Assembly: GCA_016188625.1 (NCBI GenBank)
Contig: JACPHL010000008.1
Span: 1 to 22,061, forward strand
DNA: 22,061 nucleotides
Direction: 5' to 3'
Origin: Candidatus Rokuibacteriota bacterium
GTDB taxonomy: Bacteria > Methylomirabilota > Methylomirabilia > Rokubacteriales > JACPHL01
In this document: piece after piece, positions 4,353-20,523 of the stretch
How positions within the stretch are numbered: the stretch's first letter is position 1
How the letters are laid out: each line of letters begins with the position of its first letter
Program-made: the position numbers and the translations under genes
The notes under the pieces: generated by a model
Databases searched by the model: none
What the model was told of the DNA's origin: nothing
What the model saw: the letters and a program-made list of their open reading frames with translations, nothing else

Positions 4353-5228
4353 CTAGGGGACGAGCCGCCGCATGTAGCGGCTCTCCAGGTGCCTGATCCC
4401 GGCGTCGATCAGGGTGCCCAGCGCGCCGACCACGACCATCCCGCTCACCACGGTCGGCACATCCAGCAGGCTCCGGGCGTCCTCCATCATGTAGCCCAGG
4501 CCCCCCACGAGGTTCGTCGAGGCCAGCTCGGCGGTGATCAGGACGATCCAGCCGATCCCCAGCCCCACCCGGATCCCCGTGGTGATGAGGGGGAGCGCGG
4601 CCGGGATGATCACCTCCCAGGCGACGTCGAAGATATCGCCGCCGAAGTTCTGGACCGTCTCGACCTGCACCGGATCGGCCCGCCGGGTCGCGGTCAACGT
4701 GTTCAGGAAGATGGGGAAGAAGGCGCCCAGCCAGATGATGAAGATGGTGGGCGGGTTCCCCAGGCCGAACCAGAGGATGGCCAGCGGGAGCCAGGCCGGG
4801 GCCGGCACCATGCGGATCATCTCCAGGAACGGCCCCAGGTACTCCGACAGGGTGCGGAACCGGCCGATCAGGATGCCGAGCGGGATCGCGGTGACGACGG
4901 CGAGCCCGCAGGCGAAGAGGAGGCGGGAGACGCTCGCGATGATGTGGGGCTGGAGGTAGCCGACCGCCCACATCAGCCCGAGGTTGGAGATGACCGCGGT
5001 GGGGGGCGGCAGGAGCACCGGGCTCACGAGCCTGAGCTGGGAGACCCCCTGCCAGACCAGGAGGGTCGCGCTCCCGACGAAAGCCCCCCAAAGGAGGGAG
5101 GAGGGGACCCAGCGGGGGATCAGGAGGCGGGCCAGGAGCACCAGCAGCAGCACCGCGCCGATCCCCACAAGGAACGCGGAGACCGACATCACCTCTACCA
5201 GCTCGGGGAAATACCGGCCGTGCAGCAT
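4353..5228 (-). CDS. ABC transporter permease, NitT/TauT type, copy 3
   Basis: 291-residue inner-membrane permease, first of the three permease genes. The ATG at 5228 is preferred over an in-frame GTG at 5294 because GGAGGAGG precedes it at about 10 nt and because the extra residues would be Gly/Arg-rich and non-hydrophobic. After an N-terminal extra helix (AFLVGIGAVLLLVLLARLL) come the family landmarks LLPPPTAVISNLGLM, RFRTLSEYLGPFLEMIRMVP, PAWLPLAILWFGLGNPPT and the EAA-like EVIIPAALPLITTGIRVGLG. It is separated from the binding-protein gene by 330 bp containing a strong terminator, so the permeases are either read through at a lower level or have their own promoter, which I could not identify. 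Confidence 0.87.
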   Translation of the reverse strand: MLHGRYFPELVEVMSVSAFLVGIGAVLLLVLLARLLIPRWVPSSLLWGAFVGSATLLVWQGVSQLRLVSPVLLPPPTAVISNLGLMWAVGYLQPHIIASVSRLLFACGLAVVTAIPLGILIGRFRTLSEYLGPFLEMIRMVPAPAWLPLAILWFGLGNPPTIFIIWLGAFFPIFLNTLTATRRADPVQVETVQNFGGDIFDVAWEVIIPAALPLITTGIRVGLGIGWIVLITAELASTNLVGGLGYMMEDARSLLDVPTVVSGMVVVGALGTLIDAGIRHLESRYMRRLVP

Positions 5229-5502
5229 CCGCCTGGAGCCTCCTCCTGTCCCGCGCCGGGCCCCGGCGGAGCCCGGGATCGCCCGCCCTCTCACGATACC
5301 AGAAAAAAAGGGCTCTTCCGGGAATCGTGCGGGCTGGTGGCCCGAATGCCCGCTGGGGAGGCGTCAGCCCCTCGCTCCACACGCTCCGCGGCGCGCCCGC
5401 CTGTGGCTCGCCGGGCGGGGCCCCTCCTCTTCGCTTTTCGCCCGCCTGTCGGCTTCCCCACCCGGCAGGAGCCCCCTCACCCACTCGAAAGCCGGAAGAC
5501 CC

Positions 5503-5538
5503 AAAAAAAGAGGCGAGGGAGAGTGCCTCCCTCGCCTC
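5503..5538 (-). terminator. Intrinsic terminator after the binding-protein gene
   Basis: A perfect 12-bp stem (5538-5527 with 5521-5510) and 5-nt loop are followed on the minus strand by seven T (5509-5503). It lies 20 bp past the stop codon at 5559. The rest of the 330-bp gap (5229-5558) shows no gene; a second A7 run near 5303 lacks an adjacent stem. Confidence 0.9.
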
Positions 5539-5558
5539 GGGGGGGATGAGGGGACGGG

Positions 5559-6569
5559 CTAGGCCTTCTTCTTGCCCAGCTCGGCCAGCGCCGCCCGCTG
5601 GTAGGCGTCGTTCAGGTTGTGCTGGATATTCGCCGTCTCGGCGACCCCCAGCGCCACCCCCGCCTCGGCGAACTCCTGCGAGCCGAGCGGGTCGATGTTG
5701 ATGGTGTTCTTCTGCCGGTCCTGCCCGAAGACGATACGGATCTCCTTCTCGGTGATCCCGCACCACTTGGCGGAGGACTTCACGTTCTCCTCGAAGTTCG
5801 CCCGCATGAACCGGTAGCCCCGGATGTGGGTCTTCATGACCTTCACGGCGGCGTCCCGGTTGGCGTCCGCCCACTTGGTGTTGTACGCCACGCGGCAGCA
5901 GACGTGGAACGGCCAGATCTCGCCGGACCACATGATCGGCTTGGCGTACTTGGTGTACTCGGCGTGGGTCCCCCACGGCTCCCAGAGGATGGCCGCGTCC
6001 AGATCGCCCTTCTCCAGGCCCACCAGGATGTCCTGGATGTGGGAGAAGTTCCTCACGGTGGCGTGCTTGAAGGGGTCGACCCCGGCCTCCAGCATCTTGT
6101 AGCGGACCACGATGTCCGCCGTGGCGGCCCGGATCGTCCCGATGTTCTTCCCCCGGAGGTCGGTGAGCTGCTTGATGGTCGTGGGGCGGGCGAAGGGGAC
6201 GACGACGGCCGAGGACTCGGTCGCCGTCCCGGACACGATGTTGAACGGGACGCCAGGGCGACTGCAGATGAAGATCGAGGGGGCCGAGCCGATGTACCCC
6301 GCCTGGAGGGCCCCGGTGATGACCCCCTCGCCGATGGGTCCCGACCCGGCGAAGAGGACCGGCTTCACCTCGAGACCTTCGTCCTGGAAGTAGCCCTGAT
6401 CGAGCGCGTTGAAGAGCGGGGAGTGATGGGTAGCCTTGAGGTAGCCGACGTTGACGGGCGACTGAGCCCGCGTGGTCCGTATGAACGGACCGACCGAGGC
6501 CGCGGCGGCTGTACCCGCCACCAGACCCGTCAGTTTGAGAAACTTCCGCCTCGTGACATGTGCACTCAT
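5559..6569 (-). CDS. Tat-exported NitT/TauT-family substrate-binding protein
   Basis: 336 residues. It captures an unidentified small solute in the periplasm for the ABC importer. The N-terminus carries a textbook twin-arginine signal (T-R7-R8-K-F-L-K) with a hydrophobic core and a likely cleavage after TRA at residue 35, so it would be exported folded. The mature part follows the SsuA/TauA/NMT1 pattern: VGYLKATHHSPLFNALDQGY near its start, then FQDEGLEVKPV, GALQAGYIGSAPSIF, and LRGKNIGTIRAATADIVVRY at about 140. Tryptophans and a Cys-Cys (LWEPWGTHAEY, WPFHVCCRV) line the probable cleft. ATG at 6569 has AAAGGAGG upstream. It is first in the locus, under a strong promoter and closed by its own terminator, so it is probably made in excess over the permeases. 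Confidence 0.9.
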   Translation of the reverse strand: MSAHVTRRKFLKLTGLVAGTAAAASVGPFIRTTRAQSPVNVGYLKATHHSPLFNALDQGYFQDEGLEVKPVLFAGSGPIGEGVITGALQAGYIGSAPSIFICSRPGVPFNIVSGTATESSAVVVPFARPTTIKQLTDLRGKNIGTIRAATADIVVRYKMLEAGVDPFKHATVRNFSHIQDILVGLEKGDLDAAILWEPWGTHAEYTKYAKPIMWSGEIWPFHVCCRVAYNTKWADANRDAAVKVMKTHIRGYRFMRANFEENVKSSAKWCGITEKEIRIVFGQDRQKNTINIDPLGSQEFAEAGVALGVAETANIQHNLNDAYQRAALAELGKKKA

Positions 6570-14755: not shown

Positions 14756-14843
14756 TGGTGCCGGGAGGGGGAGTCGAACCCCCACGGGCGCAGAGCCCAA
14801 CGGATTTTGAGTCCGTCGCGTCTCCCTGTTCCGCCATCCCGGC
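14756..14843 (-). tRNA. tRNA-Leu (anticodon CAA), CCA encoded
   Basis: Class-II tRNA on the minus strand. Acceptor arm GCCGGGA (14843-14837) pairs with TCCCGGC (14766-14760), followed by discriminator A (14759) and CCA (14758-14756). The anticodon loop CTCAAAA between ACGGA and TCCGT gives CAA (reads UUG). A long variable arm and the GGTTCGA T-loop are present. It lies 11 bp after a small membrane-protein gene and 38 bp before the HtrA-like gene, all on the same strand. Confidence 0.97.
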
Positions 14844-15172: not shown

Positions 15173-15248
15173 GGGGCTGTAGCTCAGCTGGGAGAGCACG
15201 AGGCTGGCAGTCTCGGGGTCAGGGGTTCAAATCCCCTCAGCTCCACCA
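15173..15248 (+). tRNA. tRNA-Ala (anticodon GGC), CCA encoded
   Basis: Acceptor GGGGCTG pairs with CAGCTCC, followed by ACCA. The D-arm is GCTC...GAGC. The anticodon stem CGAGG/TCTCG holds the loop CTGGCAG, giving anticodon GGC (reads GCC). The T-arm is AGGGG-TTCAAAT-CCCCT. All 76 nt are present including the encoded CCA. Confidence 0.97.
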
Positions 15249-15899: not shown

Positions 15900-16517
15900 A
15901 TGAAGCTCCTGACCGATACCGTGGTGCCGGCCCGCACGGGGAAGGCGTTCGTCGTCCAGCGAGGCCAGCGCATCCGCGTCCTCGAGGTGGAGGGCGGGCA
16001 GATCGGCGACTTCGTCGCCTTCAACGCCGGAAACCTCCGGGAGCGCTTCAGCCAGGGCCGGACCAAGGCCAACCAGGGGAAGATCCGGATCAGCACCGGG
16101 GACAGGCTCTACTCGAAGTCCAACAGCGTCCTCCTGACCATCGTGGAGGACACCTACGGGATCCACGACCTCCAGTACGGGATGTGCAGCCGCTGGATCT
16201 TCGAGAGCCCGGACTACCACGGCTTCGCCTCGACGCTCCCGGTCGGCGGCCCGCTCGGGCGCCCCGCGTGGGGGTGCTGGGAGAACCTGACCGAGGCCCT
16301 GAAGGCCTGGCAGATCCCGCCCGAGGACATCCCCGACCCGCTCAACCTCTTCCAGACCGTCGAGATCGACCCCGGGACCGGGCGGATGGGGATCGTCCCC
16401 GGCCGGTCGAAGCCCGGCGACTACGTGGACCTCCGCGCCGAGATGGACTGCCTGACGGCCCTCTCCGCCTGCCCCTGCACCGGCCGCCCGCTCCGCGTCC
16501 AGGTCTACGAAGAGTGA
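15900..16517 (+). CDS. DUF1989 (urea carboxylase-associated) family protein
   Basis: 205 residues, cytoplasmic. The start ATG has GAGGAGG about 10 nt upstream. The sequence matches the DUF1989 pattern: VVQRGQRIRVLEVEGGQIGD with GDFVAFN (36-42), TGDRLYSKSNSVLLTIVED, HDLQYGMCS (89-97), WGCWENL, PDPLNLFQTVEID, GDYVDLRAEMDCLTALSACP (173-192). His89, Cys96, Cys184 and Cys191/193 are probable metal ligands. Relatives are encoded beside urea carboxylase/allophanate and aminomethyltransferase genes, and their exact reaction is not settled. Here it sits between an RlpA gene and the methionine cluster with no urea genes, so its role is open. Confidence 0.85.
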   Translation: MKLLTDTVVPARTGKAFVVQRGQRIRVLEVEGGQIGDFVAFNAGNLRERFSQGRTKANQGKIRISTGDRLYSKSNSVLLTIVEDTYGIHDLQYGMCSRWIFESPDYHGFASTLPVGGPLGRPAWGCWENLTEALKAWQIPPEDIPDPLNLFQTVEIDPGTGRMGIVPGRSKPGDYVDLRAEMDCLTALSACPCTGRPLRVQVYEE

Positions 16518-16566: not shown

Positions 16567-17586
16567 GTGACGGAGTCGCGCGTGGACCTGCTCATCGCCA
16601 GCACCGGCAGCTACCCCCGGATCGGGGACGCCCCCGAGGCCCAGCGTCACCGCCAGGCCTTCGCCCGCCGGGAGCGGGGGGAGCTCTCGGAGCAGGAGTT
16701 CGAGGCCGTCCAGGATCGGGTGACCGAGGAGGTCATCCAAGAGCAGGTCGAGGCCGGGCTCGACCTGGTCACCGACGGCCAGATCCGCTGGTACGACCCG
16801 ATCTCCCACCTCGCGCGCCGGCTCGAGGGCGTGGAGATCGACGGCCTCCTCCGCTACTTCGACACCAACTGCTACTTCCGCCAGCCCGTAGTGCAGGGGC
16901 GGCTCGGCTGGACGGGACCGGTCCTCCTCCGGGAGTTCCGGCTCGCCCGCCGGCTCTCCCCCCGGCCGGTCAAGCCGGTCCTCACCGGCCCCTACACCCT
17001 GGCGCGCGGCTCGCTCCTCCGGACCACCGCCTACCGCGGCCTCCGCGACCTCACGCTGGCCTACGCCGAGATCCTCGCCCGGGAGGTCGAGGCCCTGGCC
17101 GGCGAGGAGGTCCCCCTCATCCAGGTGGACGAGCCGTCGATCCTGGCCCACCCCGAGGATCTCGATCTCCTCGGCGAGGCCCTCGGGCGCCTGGCGGCGG
17201 CGAAGAGGCGCGCCGAGCTGGGGCTCGCGACCTACTTCGGGGACGCCGCCCCCCTCTACCGGGAGCTGCAGCGCCTGCCGATCGATCGCCTCGGCCTCGA
17301 CTTCACGTATAGCCCGAAGCTCCCGGCCCTCATCGCCGAGCAGGGGGCCGAGAAGCCCCTCGCCCTCGGCCTCTTCGACGGTCGCAACACGCGGCTCGAG
17401 CGCCGGGAGGAGATCTTCCCGATCCTCGACCGGATCCTCCCCCGCCTCGCGGCCCCGAGCGTCCACCTCTGCCCCTCCTCGGGCCTCGAGTACCTGCCGC
17501 GGGATCGCGCGCGGGCGAAGCTCGAGACGATGCGGGCGGTCCGCGACGCCTACCGGGCCGAGCGCCCGGACGGGGGCCGCCGATGA
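16567..17586 (+). CDS. Stand-alone MetE N-terminal-domain homologue
   Basis: 339 residues from GTG 16567, a (beta/alpha)8 barrel. It matches the N-terminal, non-catalytic half of cobalamin-independent methionine synthase rather than the catalytic half. Compare with E. coli MetE (recalled): GDFAWYD becomes GQIRWYD (71-77), WFNTNYHY becomes YFDTNCYF (97-104), TTYFEGV becomes ATYFGDA (221-227), LINGRNVW becomes LFDGRNTR (269-276). QVDEP is at 186-190. The zinc His-x-Cys is absent, as expected for this half. The R-E-L-K-K stretch that grips the folate polyglutamate tail is replaced by DAPEAQRHR (21-29), so folate binding may differ. The catalytic-half gene follows after 94 bp, so the two probably form a split MetE. 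Confidence 0.82.
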   Translation: MTESRVDLLIASTGSYPRIGDAPEAQRHRQAFARRERGELSEQEFEAVQDRVTEEVIQEQVEAGLDLVTDGQIRWYDPISHLARRLEGVEIDGLLRYFDTNCYFRQPVVQGRLGWTGPVLLREFRLARRLSPRPVKPVLTGPYTLARGSLLRTTAYRGLRDLTLAYAEILAREVEALAGEEVPLIQVDEPSILAHPEDLDLLGEALGRLAAAKRRAELGLATYFGDAAPLYRELQRLPIDRLGLDFTYSPKLPALIAEQGAEKPLALGLFDGRNTRLERREEIFPILDRILPRLAAPSVHLCPSSGLEYLPRDRARAKLETMRAVRDAYRAERPDGGRR

Positions 17587-17607
17587 GACACCCGCCTCTT
17601 CCTGTCG

Positions 17608-17669
17608 CCACCCGCCCGCGGCCCCGGGCGGTGGGGGGGCTTGGGGGAGGAGCGACGCCGCTCCCCCCC
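17608..17669 (+). other. Two strong stem-loops between the MetE halves
   Basis: The first pairs 17608-17618 with 17625-17634 (10 bp, one bulge, 6-nt loop). The second pairs 17650-17654 with 17659-17663 around a 4-nt loop and extends outward through one mismatch to 17644/17669. The second ends 11 bp before the GTG at 17681, directly ahead of AAGGTGG. No T-tract follows, so they look more like mRNA processing, stability or translation-control elements than a terminator. Confidence 0.45.
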
Positions 17670-17680
17670 AAGGTGGACCA

Positions 17681-18682
17681 GTGAGCCGGGAGCTGCTCCG
17701 GCGCCTCGGGCTCGACCTCCCGCCCCTCCCCACCAGCACCGTCGGCTCCTTCCCCAAGCCCGAGCCGCTCCTCGAGGGGCGGCGCCGGTTCGCCCGGAAC
17801 CAGATCACCCGGACGGAGCTGGAGCGGCTCGAGCGGGAGGCGACGGCGTTCTGGGTGAGGACCCAGGAGGAGCTGGGGCTGGACGTCCTGGTGGACGGGG
17901 AGCAGTACCGGGGGGACATGGTCGCCTACTTCGCCGAGCTGATCCCGGGCATGAAGACCGGCAGGCTGGTCCGCTCCTACGGGAACCGCTACTACAGAAA
18001 GCCGGTCATCGTGGGGGAGGTCGCCTGGCCGGGGCCGATGACGGTGGAGTGGTGGAAGTGGACCCAGTCGCTCACCGGGAAGCCGGTGAAGGGGATGCTC
18101 ACCGGCCCTTACACGGTCATGGACTGGTCGTTCGACGAGCACTATCCGAACCGCGCCGCCGCCTGCCTGGCGCTGGCCCACGCGCTGCGCCGGGAGGTGG
18201 AGGCCCTGGTCGAGGCCGGGGCCAGGATCATCCAGATCGACGAGCCCGCGCTCTCGGTCCGGCCCGCGGAGCTCCCCCTGGTGGTCGAGGCGATGCACGT
18301 CCTGACCGACGGCCTCGACGCCTACTTCATCAACCACGCCTGCTACGGGGCCTTCGAGACCATCTACCCGGGGATGCTCGACCTCCCCTCCCACAACCTC
18401 GACCTGGCCATCTCCCAGAGCGCGCTCGACCTCCTGGCGATCTTCGCCCGGCACCCGTTCACCAAGGACCTCTCCGTCGGCGTCCTGGACGTCCACTCCC
18501 ACGTCGTCGAGACGCCGGCCGAGGTCAAGGCCCGGGTCCGGCGGGGGCTCGAGGTCCTCCCGCCCGAGCGGGTCTGGGTGGATCCGGACTGCGGGCTCAA
18601 GACCCGGTCCGTGGACGAGGCCCGGGGCAAGCTCGAGGCGATGATGGCCGCGGTCCGGGAGCTCCGCCAGGCCCTCGCCTGA
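17681..18682 (+). CDS. MetE C-terminal (catalytic) domain homologue, methionine synthase-like
   Basis: 333 residues from GTG 17681 with AAGGTGG upstream. It follows the catalytic half of MetE closely: STVGSFPKP (19-27), SYGNRYYRKPVIVGEV (99-114), PMTVEWWKWTQSLTGKPVKG (119-138), MLTGPYTVMDWSF, IIQIDEPAL (183-191), VWVDPDCGLKTR (298-309). It should transfer a methyl group to homocysteine using a zinc-bound thiolate. Ligands H219 and C221 (NHACYGAF) and C304 are present. The Glu ligand (E. coli E665, in TIETS) aligns by eye with Ala in LDLAISQS (about 244). This may signal a different ligand set or methyl donor. Its TGA overlaps the next ATG (TGATG). Confidence 0.85.
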   Translation: MSRELLRRLGLDLPPLPTSTVGSFPKPEPLLEGRRRFARNQITRTELERLEREATAFWVRTQEELGLDVLVDGEQYRGDMVAYFAELIPGMKTGRLVRSYGNRYYRKPVIVGEVAWPGPMTVEWWKWTQSLTGKPVKGMLTGPYTVMDWSFDEHYPNRAAACLALAHALRREVEALVEAGARIIQIDEPALSVRPAELPLVVEAMHVLTDGLDAYFINHACYGAFETIYPGMLDLPSHNLDLAISQSALDLLAIFARHPFTKDLSVGVLDVHSHVVETPAEVKARVRRGLEVLPPERVWVDPDCGLKTRSVDEARGKLEAMMAAVRELRQALA

Positions 18683-20523
18683 TGGCCTCTCCCCTGCTCG
18701 CCCGCCTGGCCGAGGGCCCGCTCCTCGCCGACGGCGCGATGGGGACGATGCTCTACGCCCGCGGGGTCCCCCTCGACGCCTGCTTCGACATCCTGAACCT
18801 CCAGAACCCCGAGCTGGTCCGGACCATCCACGCCGAGTACGTCGCGGCCGGCGCCGACCTGATCGAGACCAACACCTTCGGGGCCAACCGCTTCAAGCTC
18901 GCCATCCACGGCCTGGAGACCCGGGTCCGCGAGATCAACCGGCAGGGGGCGAAGGTGGCCCGCGACGTGCGGGAGGCGATGGGGCGGGACGTCTTCGTCC
19001 TGGGCTCCATCGGCCCGTTGGGCAAATACCTCAGACCGCTGGGGGGCGTGACGCCGGAGGAGGCCCGGCAGGCCTTCGGCGAGCAGGCCGAGGGGCTCCT
19101 CGAGGGGGGCGTGGACGGCTTCATCCTGGAGACCTTCTCCGACCCCGCCGAGCTGGCCCTGGCCGTCGCGGCGGTGCGCGCGGTCTCCGACCTCCCCATC
19201 CTCGCCCAGACCACCTACTCGGACGACGGGGTCACCTTCCTCGGCCAACCCCCCTCGGAGGTCGCCCGGCTCCTCCGGGACCTCCCGGTCCAGGTGATCG
19301 GGGCCAACTGCTCGGTCGGCCCGAGCGTGCTCCAGCAGGTCATCGAGCAGATGGCCCCGGAGGCCGGCGGGTGCTACCTCTCGGTCCTGCCGAACGCGGG
19401 CCTCCCCTCCCGGGTCGGCGACCGGCTGATCTACCTCGCCTCCCCGGCCTACTTCGCCGCCTCGGTCGACCGGCTCCTCGAGGCGGGGGCCCGGATCGTG
19501 GGCGGCTGCTGCGGGACGACCCCGGAGCACATCCGGGCGATGCGCGAGGCGGTGGACCGGCACGTCCCGGGCGCGGTGCGTGCCCGCCGGGCCGTCGTGG
19601 TCACCCCGAGGGAGGAGGCGCCGCCGCTCCGGCCGAGCGCCGAGCCGACCCTCCTGGCGAGGAGGCTCGAGGCCGGCGAGTTCGTCGTGACGGTGGAGCT
19701 GGACCCGCCGCGGGGCCATCAGATCGAGAAGCTCGTCCAGGGGGCGAAGCTCCTCCGGTCGAAGGGCGTGGAGATCGTGGACATCAACGACGGCGCCCTC
19801 GGCCGGGTCCGGATGGCGGTCCTGCCGACCGCGCTCCTGGTCCGGGAGGCGACGGGGCTCGAGATCAGCCTCCACTTCACCTGCCGGGACCGGAACCTGA
19901 TGGGGATCCAGGCTGAGCTGCTCGGGGCCCACGCCCTCGGGGTCCGGAACATCCTGGCGATGACCGGCGATCCGCCCCGCGTCGGGGACTACCTCAACGC
20001 CACCGCCGTCTTCGACGTCGAGGCGATCGGCCTGGTCCGGATCCTGGCCGGCTTCAACCGCGGGGTGGACGCCTCGGGGACCTCCATCGGGGAGCCGTGC
20101 CGCTTCGCGATCGGCGTGGCGCTGAACCCGGCGGCCGAGGACCTCGGGCGGGAGGTCGAGCGCTTCCACCGGAAGGTGGAGGCCGGCGCCCAGTGGGCCC
20201 AGACCCAGCCGGTCTACGAGCTCGAGGTCCTGGAGCGGTTCTTCGAGCGCGCCGGCCCCCCGCCCATCCCCATCATCGTCGGGATCCTGCCGCTCCACAG
20301 CGCCCGTCACGCCGAGTTCCTCCACCACGAGGTCCCGGGGATCTCGGTGCCGACTGAGGTGCGGCAGCGGATGCGAGAGGCGGGGGACCGGGCGCAGGCG
20401 CTCGGGATCGCCTTCGCCCAGGAGACGCTCCGAGCCGTCCGGGGGCGCTACCAGGGCGCCTACCTGATGCCCTCCTTCGGCCGCTTCGAGGTGGTCGCCG
20501 AGGTCCTCGACGCCCTGGAGTAG
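18682..20523 (+). CDS. Bifunctional homocysteine S-methyltransferase / 5,10-methylene-THF reductase
   Basis: 613 residues starting at ATG 18682, sharing one base with the previous stop. Residues about 1-300 are a homocysteine S-methyltransferase domain: LLADGAMGTMLYARG, ETNTFGANR (62-70), and zinc cysteines C210 (GANCSVGP) and C276-C277 (GGCCGTTP). Residues about 325-613 are a MetF-type FAD-dependent reductase: FVVTVELDPPRGH, HFTCRDRNLMGIQAELLGAH, NILAMTGDPPR and AQWAQTQPVYE. This is the arrangement of Bacillus YitJ and related fusions, combining methyl-THF formation with transfer to homocysteine. No cobalamin-binding domain is present, unlike MetH. Cotranscription with the split MetE puts two homocysteine methylation routes in one operon. 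Confidence 0.92.
   Translation: MASPLLARLAEGPLLADGAMGTMLYARGVPLDACFDILNLQNPELVRTIHAEYVAAGADLIETNTFGANRFKLAIHGLETRVREINRQGAKVARDVREAMGRDVFVLGSIGPLGKYLRPLGGVTPEEARQAFGEQAEGLLEGGVDGFILETFSDPAELALAVAAVRAVSDLPILAQTTYSDDGVTFLGQPPSEVARLLRDLPVQVIGANCSVGPSVLQQVIEQMAPEAGGCYLSVLPNAGLPSRVGDRLIYLASPAYFAASVDRLLEAGARIVGGCCGTTPEHIRAMREAVDRHVPGAVRARRAVVVTPREEAPPLRPSAEPTLLARRLEAGEFVVTVELDPPRGHQIEKLVQGAKLLRSKGVEIVDINDGALGRVRMAVLPTALLVREATGLEISLHFTCRDRNLMGIQAELLGAHALGVRNILAMTGDPPRVGDYLNATAVFDVEAIGLVRILAGFNRGVDASGTSIGEPCRFAIGVALNPAAEDLGREVERFHRKVEAGAQWAQTQPVYELEVLERFFERAGPPPIPIIVGILPLHSARHAEFLHHEVPGISVPTEVRQRMREAGDRAQALGIAFAQETLRAVRGRYQGAYLMPSFGRFEVVAEVLDALE

Follow-up and report, generated by a model that had tools for sequence, protein, structure and literature searches.

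The window, a stretch of 22,061 nucleotides from a Candidatus Rokuibacteriota genome (assembly GCA_016188625.1, contig JACPHL010000008.1), carries two adjacent genes corresponding to the two halves of the methionine synthase MetE, followed by a gene in which a homocysteine S-methyltransferase is fused to an MTHFR. These genes, together with the tRNAs found upstream, are located as follows:

14756-14843, minus strand: tRNA-Leu (CAA)
15173-15248, plus strand: tRNA-Ala (GGC)
16567-17586, plus strand: N-half of the split MetE (GTG start, 339 aa, Meth_synt_1)
17681-18682, plus strand: catalytic C-half of the split MetE (GTG start, 333 aa, Meth_synt_2)
18682-20523, plus strand: fused homocysteine S-methyltransferase/MTHFR, PRK08645-like (613 aa, PF02574 and PF02219)

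The N-half and the C-half are two open reading frames, separated by a stop codon and a 94-nt gap. This gap holds a G+C-rich, very stable hairpin just 5´ of the catalytic-half start (-64.5 kcal/mol, z -2.4, for the stretch 17584-17690). The identity of the third gene is supported by its match to NF006396 (712.4 bits versus a cut-off of 453). Its ATG overlaps the stop codon of the C-half by one base (TGA at 18680-18682, within TGATG at 18680-18684) and, because of this overlap, the C-half and the fused MTHFR gene are probably translated together. Immediately upstream of the MetE pair lies a DUF1989 gene of the urea-amidolyase-associated type (15900-16517). An Rfam search detected no riboswitch upstream of the pair, its only matches being the two tRNAs.

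Identity of the two MetE halves

Split MetE has been described mainly in archaea, and also in Sulfobacillus, with PF1268/PF1269 of Pyrococcus furiosus as a representative; these proteins were predicted to use methyl-folate or another methyl-pterin as methyl donor (Price et al. 2021, PMC7857596). The preliminary description of the locus had mentioned such archaeal genes and had read, correctly, the two window proteins as the N- and C-halves of MetE rather than as two copies of the catalytic half. Profile scores for PF08267 and PF01717, active-site residues and sequence motifs bear out this reading at the coordinates listed above.

The best profile match of the first protein is PF08267 (Meth_synt_1, 102.5 bits), with PF01717 in second place (82.9 bits). 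Its AlphaFold model, built from an alignment of relatives (mean pLDDT 94.8), finds its best fold match in the N-terminal barrel of Streptococcus mutans MetE (2nq5, residues 1-363, Z 37.2). The C-barrels follow closely (Z 33-34), as expected for duplicated barrels, and in the profile comparison with E. coli MetE the N-part scores 172 and the C-part 166; fold and profile scores alone part the two barrels only slightly for this protein. The discrimination comes from the residues: neither the zinc nor the homocysteine residues are present in the protein or its relatives, whereas the motifs of an N-barrel are (FDTN, TYFGD and GLFDGRN, the last being GLxDGRN across the relatives), which rules the protein out as a catalytic-half paralogue. 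The N-barrel of MetE is disabled in the same manner, with a Tyr replacing the first zinc Cys (Pejchal and Ludwig, PMC539065). By its sequence, the first protein is assigned as a MetE N-half with a disabled zinc/homocysteine site.

The preliminary description had also pointed to the loss of the R-E-L-K-K folate-tail motif from the N-half. The exact string is indeed absent; however, it is missing across the whole split family and is consequently no distinguishing mark of this protein, nor is the site empty. Arg29 falls at the position of E. coli Lys20, in a column that is Arg in 91 of 91 N-halves when a three-residue insertion is allowed in the alignment. Another residue, Arg96, adjacent to the position of T. 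maritima Lys104, stands ahead of the FDTN motif in each of the 41 N-halves aligned. Separately, the N-half of one Glu-type genome (locus L074, 5013-5980) is split into two frames, 5013-5444 and 5441-5980, by a frameshift or an assembly error.

The second protein matches PF01717 with 267.3 bits. It also scores against NF003317 (369.7 bits, under the cut-off of 406) and against TIGR01371 (302.7 bits, under the cut-off of 929.95). Its AlphaFold model, likewise obtained from the relatives' alignment, has a mean pLDDT of 91.4, dropping locally to about 71-72 at residues 241-260, and superposes on residues 389-733 of Thermotoga maritima MetE with a Z of 40.8 and an rmsd of 1.9 Å over 332 residues.

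The Glu zinc ligand exchanged for Ala

The C-half positions that correspond to the metal and pterin sites of MetE are the following, all on the plus strand:

18125-18127: Trp149 (E. coli W561, T. maritima W539), pterin-stacking in MetE (PMC539065)
18335-18337: His219 (E. coli H641), zinc ligand position, from alignment and sequence
18341-18343: Cys221 (E. coli C643), zinc ligand position, from alignment and sequence
18401-18403: Asp241 (E. coli T663), beta strand 6, candidate substitute or second-shell ligand
18407-18409: Ala243, codon GCC (E. coli E665, T. maritima E642), position of the Glu ligand
18590-18592: Cys304 (E. coli C726), zinc ligand position, from alignment

The retention of His219, Cys221 and Cys304 with Ala in place of Glu, suspected in the preliminary description, is upheld by alignment to solved MetE and to the E. 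coli protein, on which the placement of Ala243 rests. Ala243 replaces the Glu zinc ligand, leaving a predicted zinc set of His219, Cys221 and Cys304. It could be objected that single-residue calls from draft metagenome genomes can be wrong and that a Glu really occupies the site. This is scarcely credible here: the flanking residues align gap-free (NLDLAISNS versus NFDLEMSNS), and Ala is found in thirteen genomes of several families. Among 21 homologues of the C-half in the phylum, 13 have Ala and 8 have Glu, and since the Ala is encoded by two codons, GCC and GCG, a sequencing error can be discarded.

A different possibility is that another side chain supplies the fourth zinc ligand and that the enzyme works as an ordinary MetE. 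Asp241 is the most plausible candidate, and in core MesB proteins an Asp does occupy the Glu position itself (PMC7857596, PMC7005905). Asp is found at the 241 position in all 100 C-halves counted (23 of 23 Ala-type and 77 of 77 Glu-type rows), with Thr in E. coli and Ser in T. maritima. Nevertheless, a residue just as invariant in proteins that keep the Glu must already have another job, and at i-2 on the strand Asp241 should sit deeper in the barrel. Moreover, in neither half do the columns that distinguish the two types introduce a His, Cys, Asp or Glu near the zinc site that only Ala-type proteins have. A substitute ligand is hence considered unlikely.

The distribution of the Ala variant was analysed by a scan of GTDB with one genome per species, which retrieved 385 relatives, the best 80 of which were read at the site. 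These best 80 of 385 comprise 10 Ala, 1 Asp and otherwise Glu proteins; they span Acidobacteria, Methylomirabilota, Hadarchaea, Zixibacteria, Elusimicrobia, Omnitrophota, Dehalococcoidia and others, and all 10 Ala loci among them belong, by title, to Rokubacteria/Methylomirabilota. An N-half is present at the locus in 73 of the same best 80 of 385, nearly always directly upstream. The split MetE family is widespread and common in uncultured bacteria, and the Ala form is fixed in 13 Methylomirabilota/Rokubacteria genomes from several families. In the searched literature, which included few subscription journals, no report was found of an Ala at this site in split MetE, of the bacterial spread of the family or of its presence in Rokubacteria.

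With the trait columns masked, the tree places a single change to Ala: the Ala proteins constitute one branch, weakly supported (83/52), with Glu-type Methylomirabilota beside it. The Ala form therefore appears to be a late, derived branch of single origin inside the Glu family, which speaks against the earlier suggestion that the pair is an intermediate between full MetE and the core enzymes. Three further residues accompany the change (E. coli numbering): 642 is Ala, 662 is Leu and 666 is Ile, each in 23 of 23 Ala rows, a set that includes duplicates of some genomes. At these positions Ile, Phe and Met, respectively, predominate in the Glu proteins.

Among closely related genes, dN/dS is 0.06-0.11 for the Ala type versus 0.08-0.12 for the Glu type; the value of 0.23 between the window and locus L071 comes from a more distant pair with high dS. 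As indicated by the shared origin, the linked changes and the low dN/dS, the Ala change is old and retained, and the gene is under strong purifying selection and not decaying.

Methyl donor and role in methionine synthesis

In T. maritima MetE the folate is held by Trp539, Glu583, Lys104, Arg15, Lys18, Arg493 and Arg496, and an Asp-Met-Val loop joins it to homocysteine (PMC539065). The window C-half has the equivalents of S433, E484, D489, M490, R515, W561, D599 and H694. Across 101 split C-halves, the Ala type included, no variation is seen at the equivalents of Trp539, Arg493, the loop Asp and Met, and His672, nor at the three homocysteine residues, the Ser among these being unread in one incomplete row. 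The variable positions among the catalytic and pterin residues tested in this set are E665, V491, K518 and E605.

Locus neighbourhoods of the pair vary between phyla. The fused gene is the sole MTHFR detected in the window's genome (one PF02219 match), and an MTHFR is detected in 12 of the 13 Ala genomes. A conserved operon of the pair with MTHFR was not found in the best 80 of 385 relatives; among the loci compared, the adjacency is seen in this window only. Three Methylomirabilis-like Ala loci have a short-chain dehydrogenase after the C-half; one of these three dehydrogenases was scanned and is nearest to pteridine reductase, under the model cut-off. One of the Ala-type loci (L073, 3248-7754) encodes on a single strand a metallo-hydrolase, a homocysteine S-methyltransferase, the N-half, the C-half and the pteridine-reductase-like gene.

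The invariant pterin residues, the adjoining MTHFR and the pteridine-reductase-like neighbour favour methyl-folate as the putative donor of the Ala pair. An altered methyl donor had been suggested in the preliminary description, and could be a corrinoid protein or another compound, as in the core synthases MesA-D. The missing folate-tail string and the corrinoid proteins encoded in the window genome would fit such a donor. However, core synthases work without an N-half, which here is kept beside the C-half in most relatives. Furthermore, W561, R515, the loop Asp-Met and H694 are invariant in the split C-halves, whereas core-like paralogues in this phylum mostly no longer have the Trp, the loop Asp or the His. 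With the homocysteine and folate sites intact in both Ala and Glu types, and the only MTHFR detected in the genome starting within the stop codon of the C-half, a donor other than methyl-folate is very improbable.

The distribution of MetH bears on the role of the pair. MetH, full or fragmentary, is found in 1 of the 24 genomes that encode the pair and in 58 of the 71 that do not (Fisher P 7e-12, in a test that takes genomes as independent, though they are related). Within one Methylomirabilis-like genus, three genomes have the Ala pair and no MetH, eleven have MetH and no pair, and one has neither. No full MetH exceeds the cut-off in the 13 Ala genomes; these are drafts, in which a missing MetH may in single cases be an assembly gap. 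The window genome (84% complete) shows neither a full MetH nor a PF02965 match, and its PF01717 matches include no full-length MetE. This pattern is as expected if the Ala pair is the methionine synthase of its genomes.

It can also be argued that the Ala pair does not make methionine, either methylating another thiol or being non-catalytic, with methionine supplied by the fused homocysteine methyltransferase or by corrinoid clusters. Homocysteine S-methyltransferase genes do lie near the pair, both in the window and at the three Methylomirabilis-like Ala loci (immediately upstream in two of them and about 1.3 kb upstream in the third). Clusters of homocysteine-methyltransferase and corrinoid-protein genes occur in Rokubacteria, where they might make methionine, and the window genome has them on contigs C115 and C341. 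In addition, zinc binding was doubted in MSBL-1 MesC proteins with a Gly at the same position (Price et al. 2021, PMC7857596). Against this stand the homocysteine residues S, E and D and the zinc residues H, C and C, invariant in the Ala type, and the dN/dS values given above. Moreover, a TIGR02082 search finds homocysteine-methyltransferase-type matches also in genomes with MetH, yet a consistent absence of MetH only in those with the pair. A role outside methionine synthesis is accordingly judged rather improbable, the enzyme having apparently retained its function despite the Ala.

As a separate observation, the gene row on contig C341 (locus L151, 49-3294) encodes a homocysteine-methyltransferase-like protein, an MtgC/MtbC-like corrinoid protein and a 345-aa protein that resembles, by eye, a URO-D-type methyltransferase. 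Perhaps this row serves the demethylation of methylated amines or betaine.

Proposed zinc mechanism and relation to known synthases

In resting MetE the zinc is coordinated by a His, two Cys and a Glu; homocysteine arrives opposite the Glu, which has to release the zinc as the metal shifts to the substrate side. In MetH and BHMT, with three Cys ligands, homocysteine is bound without inversion (PMC539065). The Glu would no longer coordinate the zinc once inversion is complete, and catalysis may therefore survive its replacement. It is proposed, with somewhat more confidence than doubt, that the window pair is a working 5-methyl-folate-dependent split MetE with a three-protein-ligand zinc, in which homocysteine binds without Glu displacement.

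According to this proposal, the N- and C-halves would pair face to face like the barrels of MetE, and the donor would be 5-methyl-tetrahydrofolate made by the MTHFR encoded beside them. The homocysteine thiolate would bind a zinc whose sole protein ligands are His219, Cys221 and Cys304. In the absence of the Glu the zinc would already face the homocysteine side, its fourth ligand being water or a nearby group, and substrate binding would require no Glu displacement, much as in MetH and BHMT with their three-cysteine sites. The linked residues 642 (Ala), 662 (Leu) and 666 (Ile) may repack the space of the lost carboxylate.

More tentatively, and with slightly less confidence than doubt, the Ala lineage may represent a naturally evolved, active His-Cys-Cys MetE that works without Glu displacement or zinc movement and has become fixed in a bacterial group in place of MetH. 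What the Glu ligand and the zinc movement do in MetE has so far been argued from structures of enzymes in which the Glu is present. The Ala lineage and the closely related Glu proteins (65-70% identical to that of the window) constitute matched enzymes for asking whether the Glu serves catalysis, the hold on zinc in the resting state or the protection of the cysteines.

Judged by the features used by Price et al. for split MetE, the locus encodes two adjacent proteins of fewer than 400 aa, a C-component of 333 aa with Meth_synt_2 and an N-component of 339 aa scoring higher for Meth_synt_1 than for Meth_synt_2, in an 84% complete genome with no full MetH and no other known synthase. It differs from the archaeal systems in the Ala for the Glu ligand, the bacterial Methylomirabilota host and the joining to a fused methyltransferase/MTHFR gene. 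As far as sequence comparison goes, the pair is ordinary as a split MetE and unusual in its metal site. The commonness of split MetE in uncultured bacteria matters for the genome-based prediction of methionine prototrophy and cobalamin need; annotation rules that require His-Cys-Glu-Cys or a single-chain MetE would miss these organisms.

With canonical MetE (E. coli, T. maritima; TIGR01371) the pair shares the two barrels, the homocysteine site, the pterin Trp, the DM(V) loop, the catalytic His, and the zinc His and two Cys. Unlike it, the pair is encoded by two genes, has no Glu ligand, retains of R-E-L-K-K just an Arg at the Lys20 position and has a shorter loop after the QIDEPA motif. The likeness to MetH and BHMT, a proposed three-protein-ligand zinc and no inversion, is one of working and not of family; there the ligands are three Cys, differently placed in the barrel.

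A non-liganding residue at the Glu position has a natural precedent in the MSBL-1 MesC proteins, with Gly at Glu665, just as MesB proteins have Asp (PMC7857596). Those MSBL-1 genomes, however, probably encode a split MetE as well, and a different function was suspected for their MesC proteins by the authors, whereas the Ala pair occurs in MetH-less genomes. The core enzymes MesA-D are homologous to the C-half and mostly have the same His-Cys-Cys zinc ligands; among these core types, the literature places MesA closest to split MetE. The core enzymes lack an N-half and rely on corrinoid proteins or an oxygen-dependent partner, in contrast with the pair described here, with its N-half and its retained pterin residues.

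Finally, core MetE-like paralogues in Rokubacteria adjoin a short MTHFR-like gene (G049:C52:24662-26268, G048:C69, G050:C116, G051:C9 and G054:C471). They have a His-Cys-Glu-Cys zinc set, Asn-Met-Ile for Asp-Met-Val and an Arg for the pterin Trp. The paralogue and the MTHFR-like gene possibly constitute a separate two-gene methyltransfer module.
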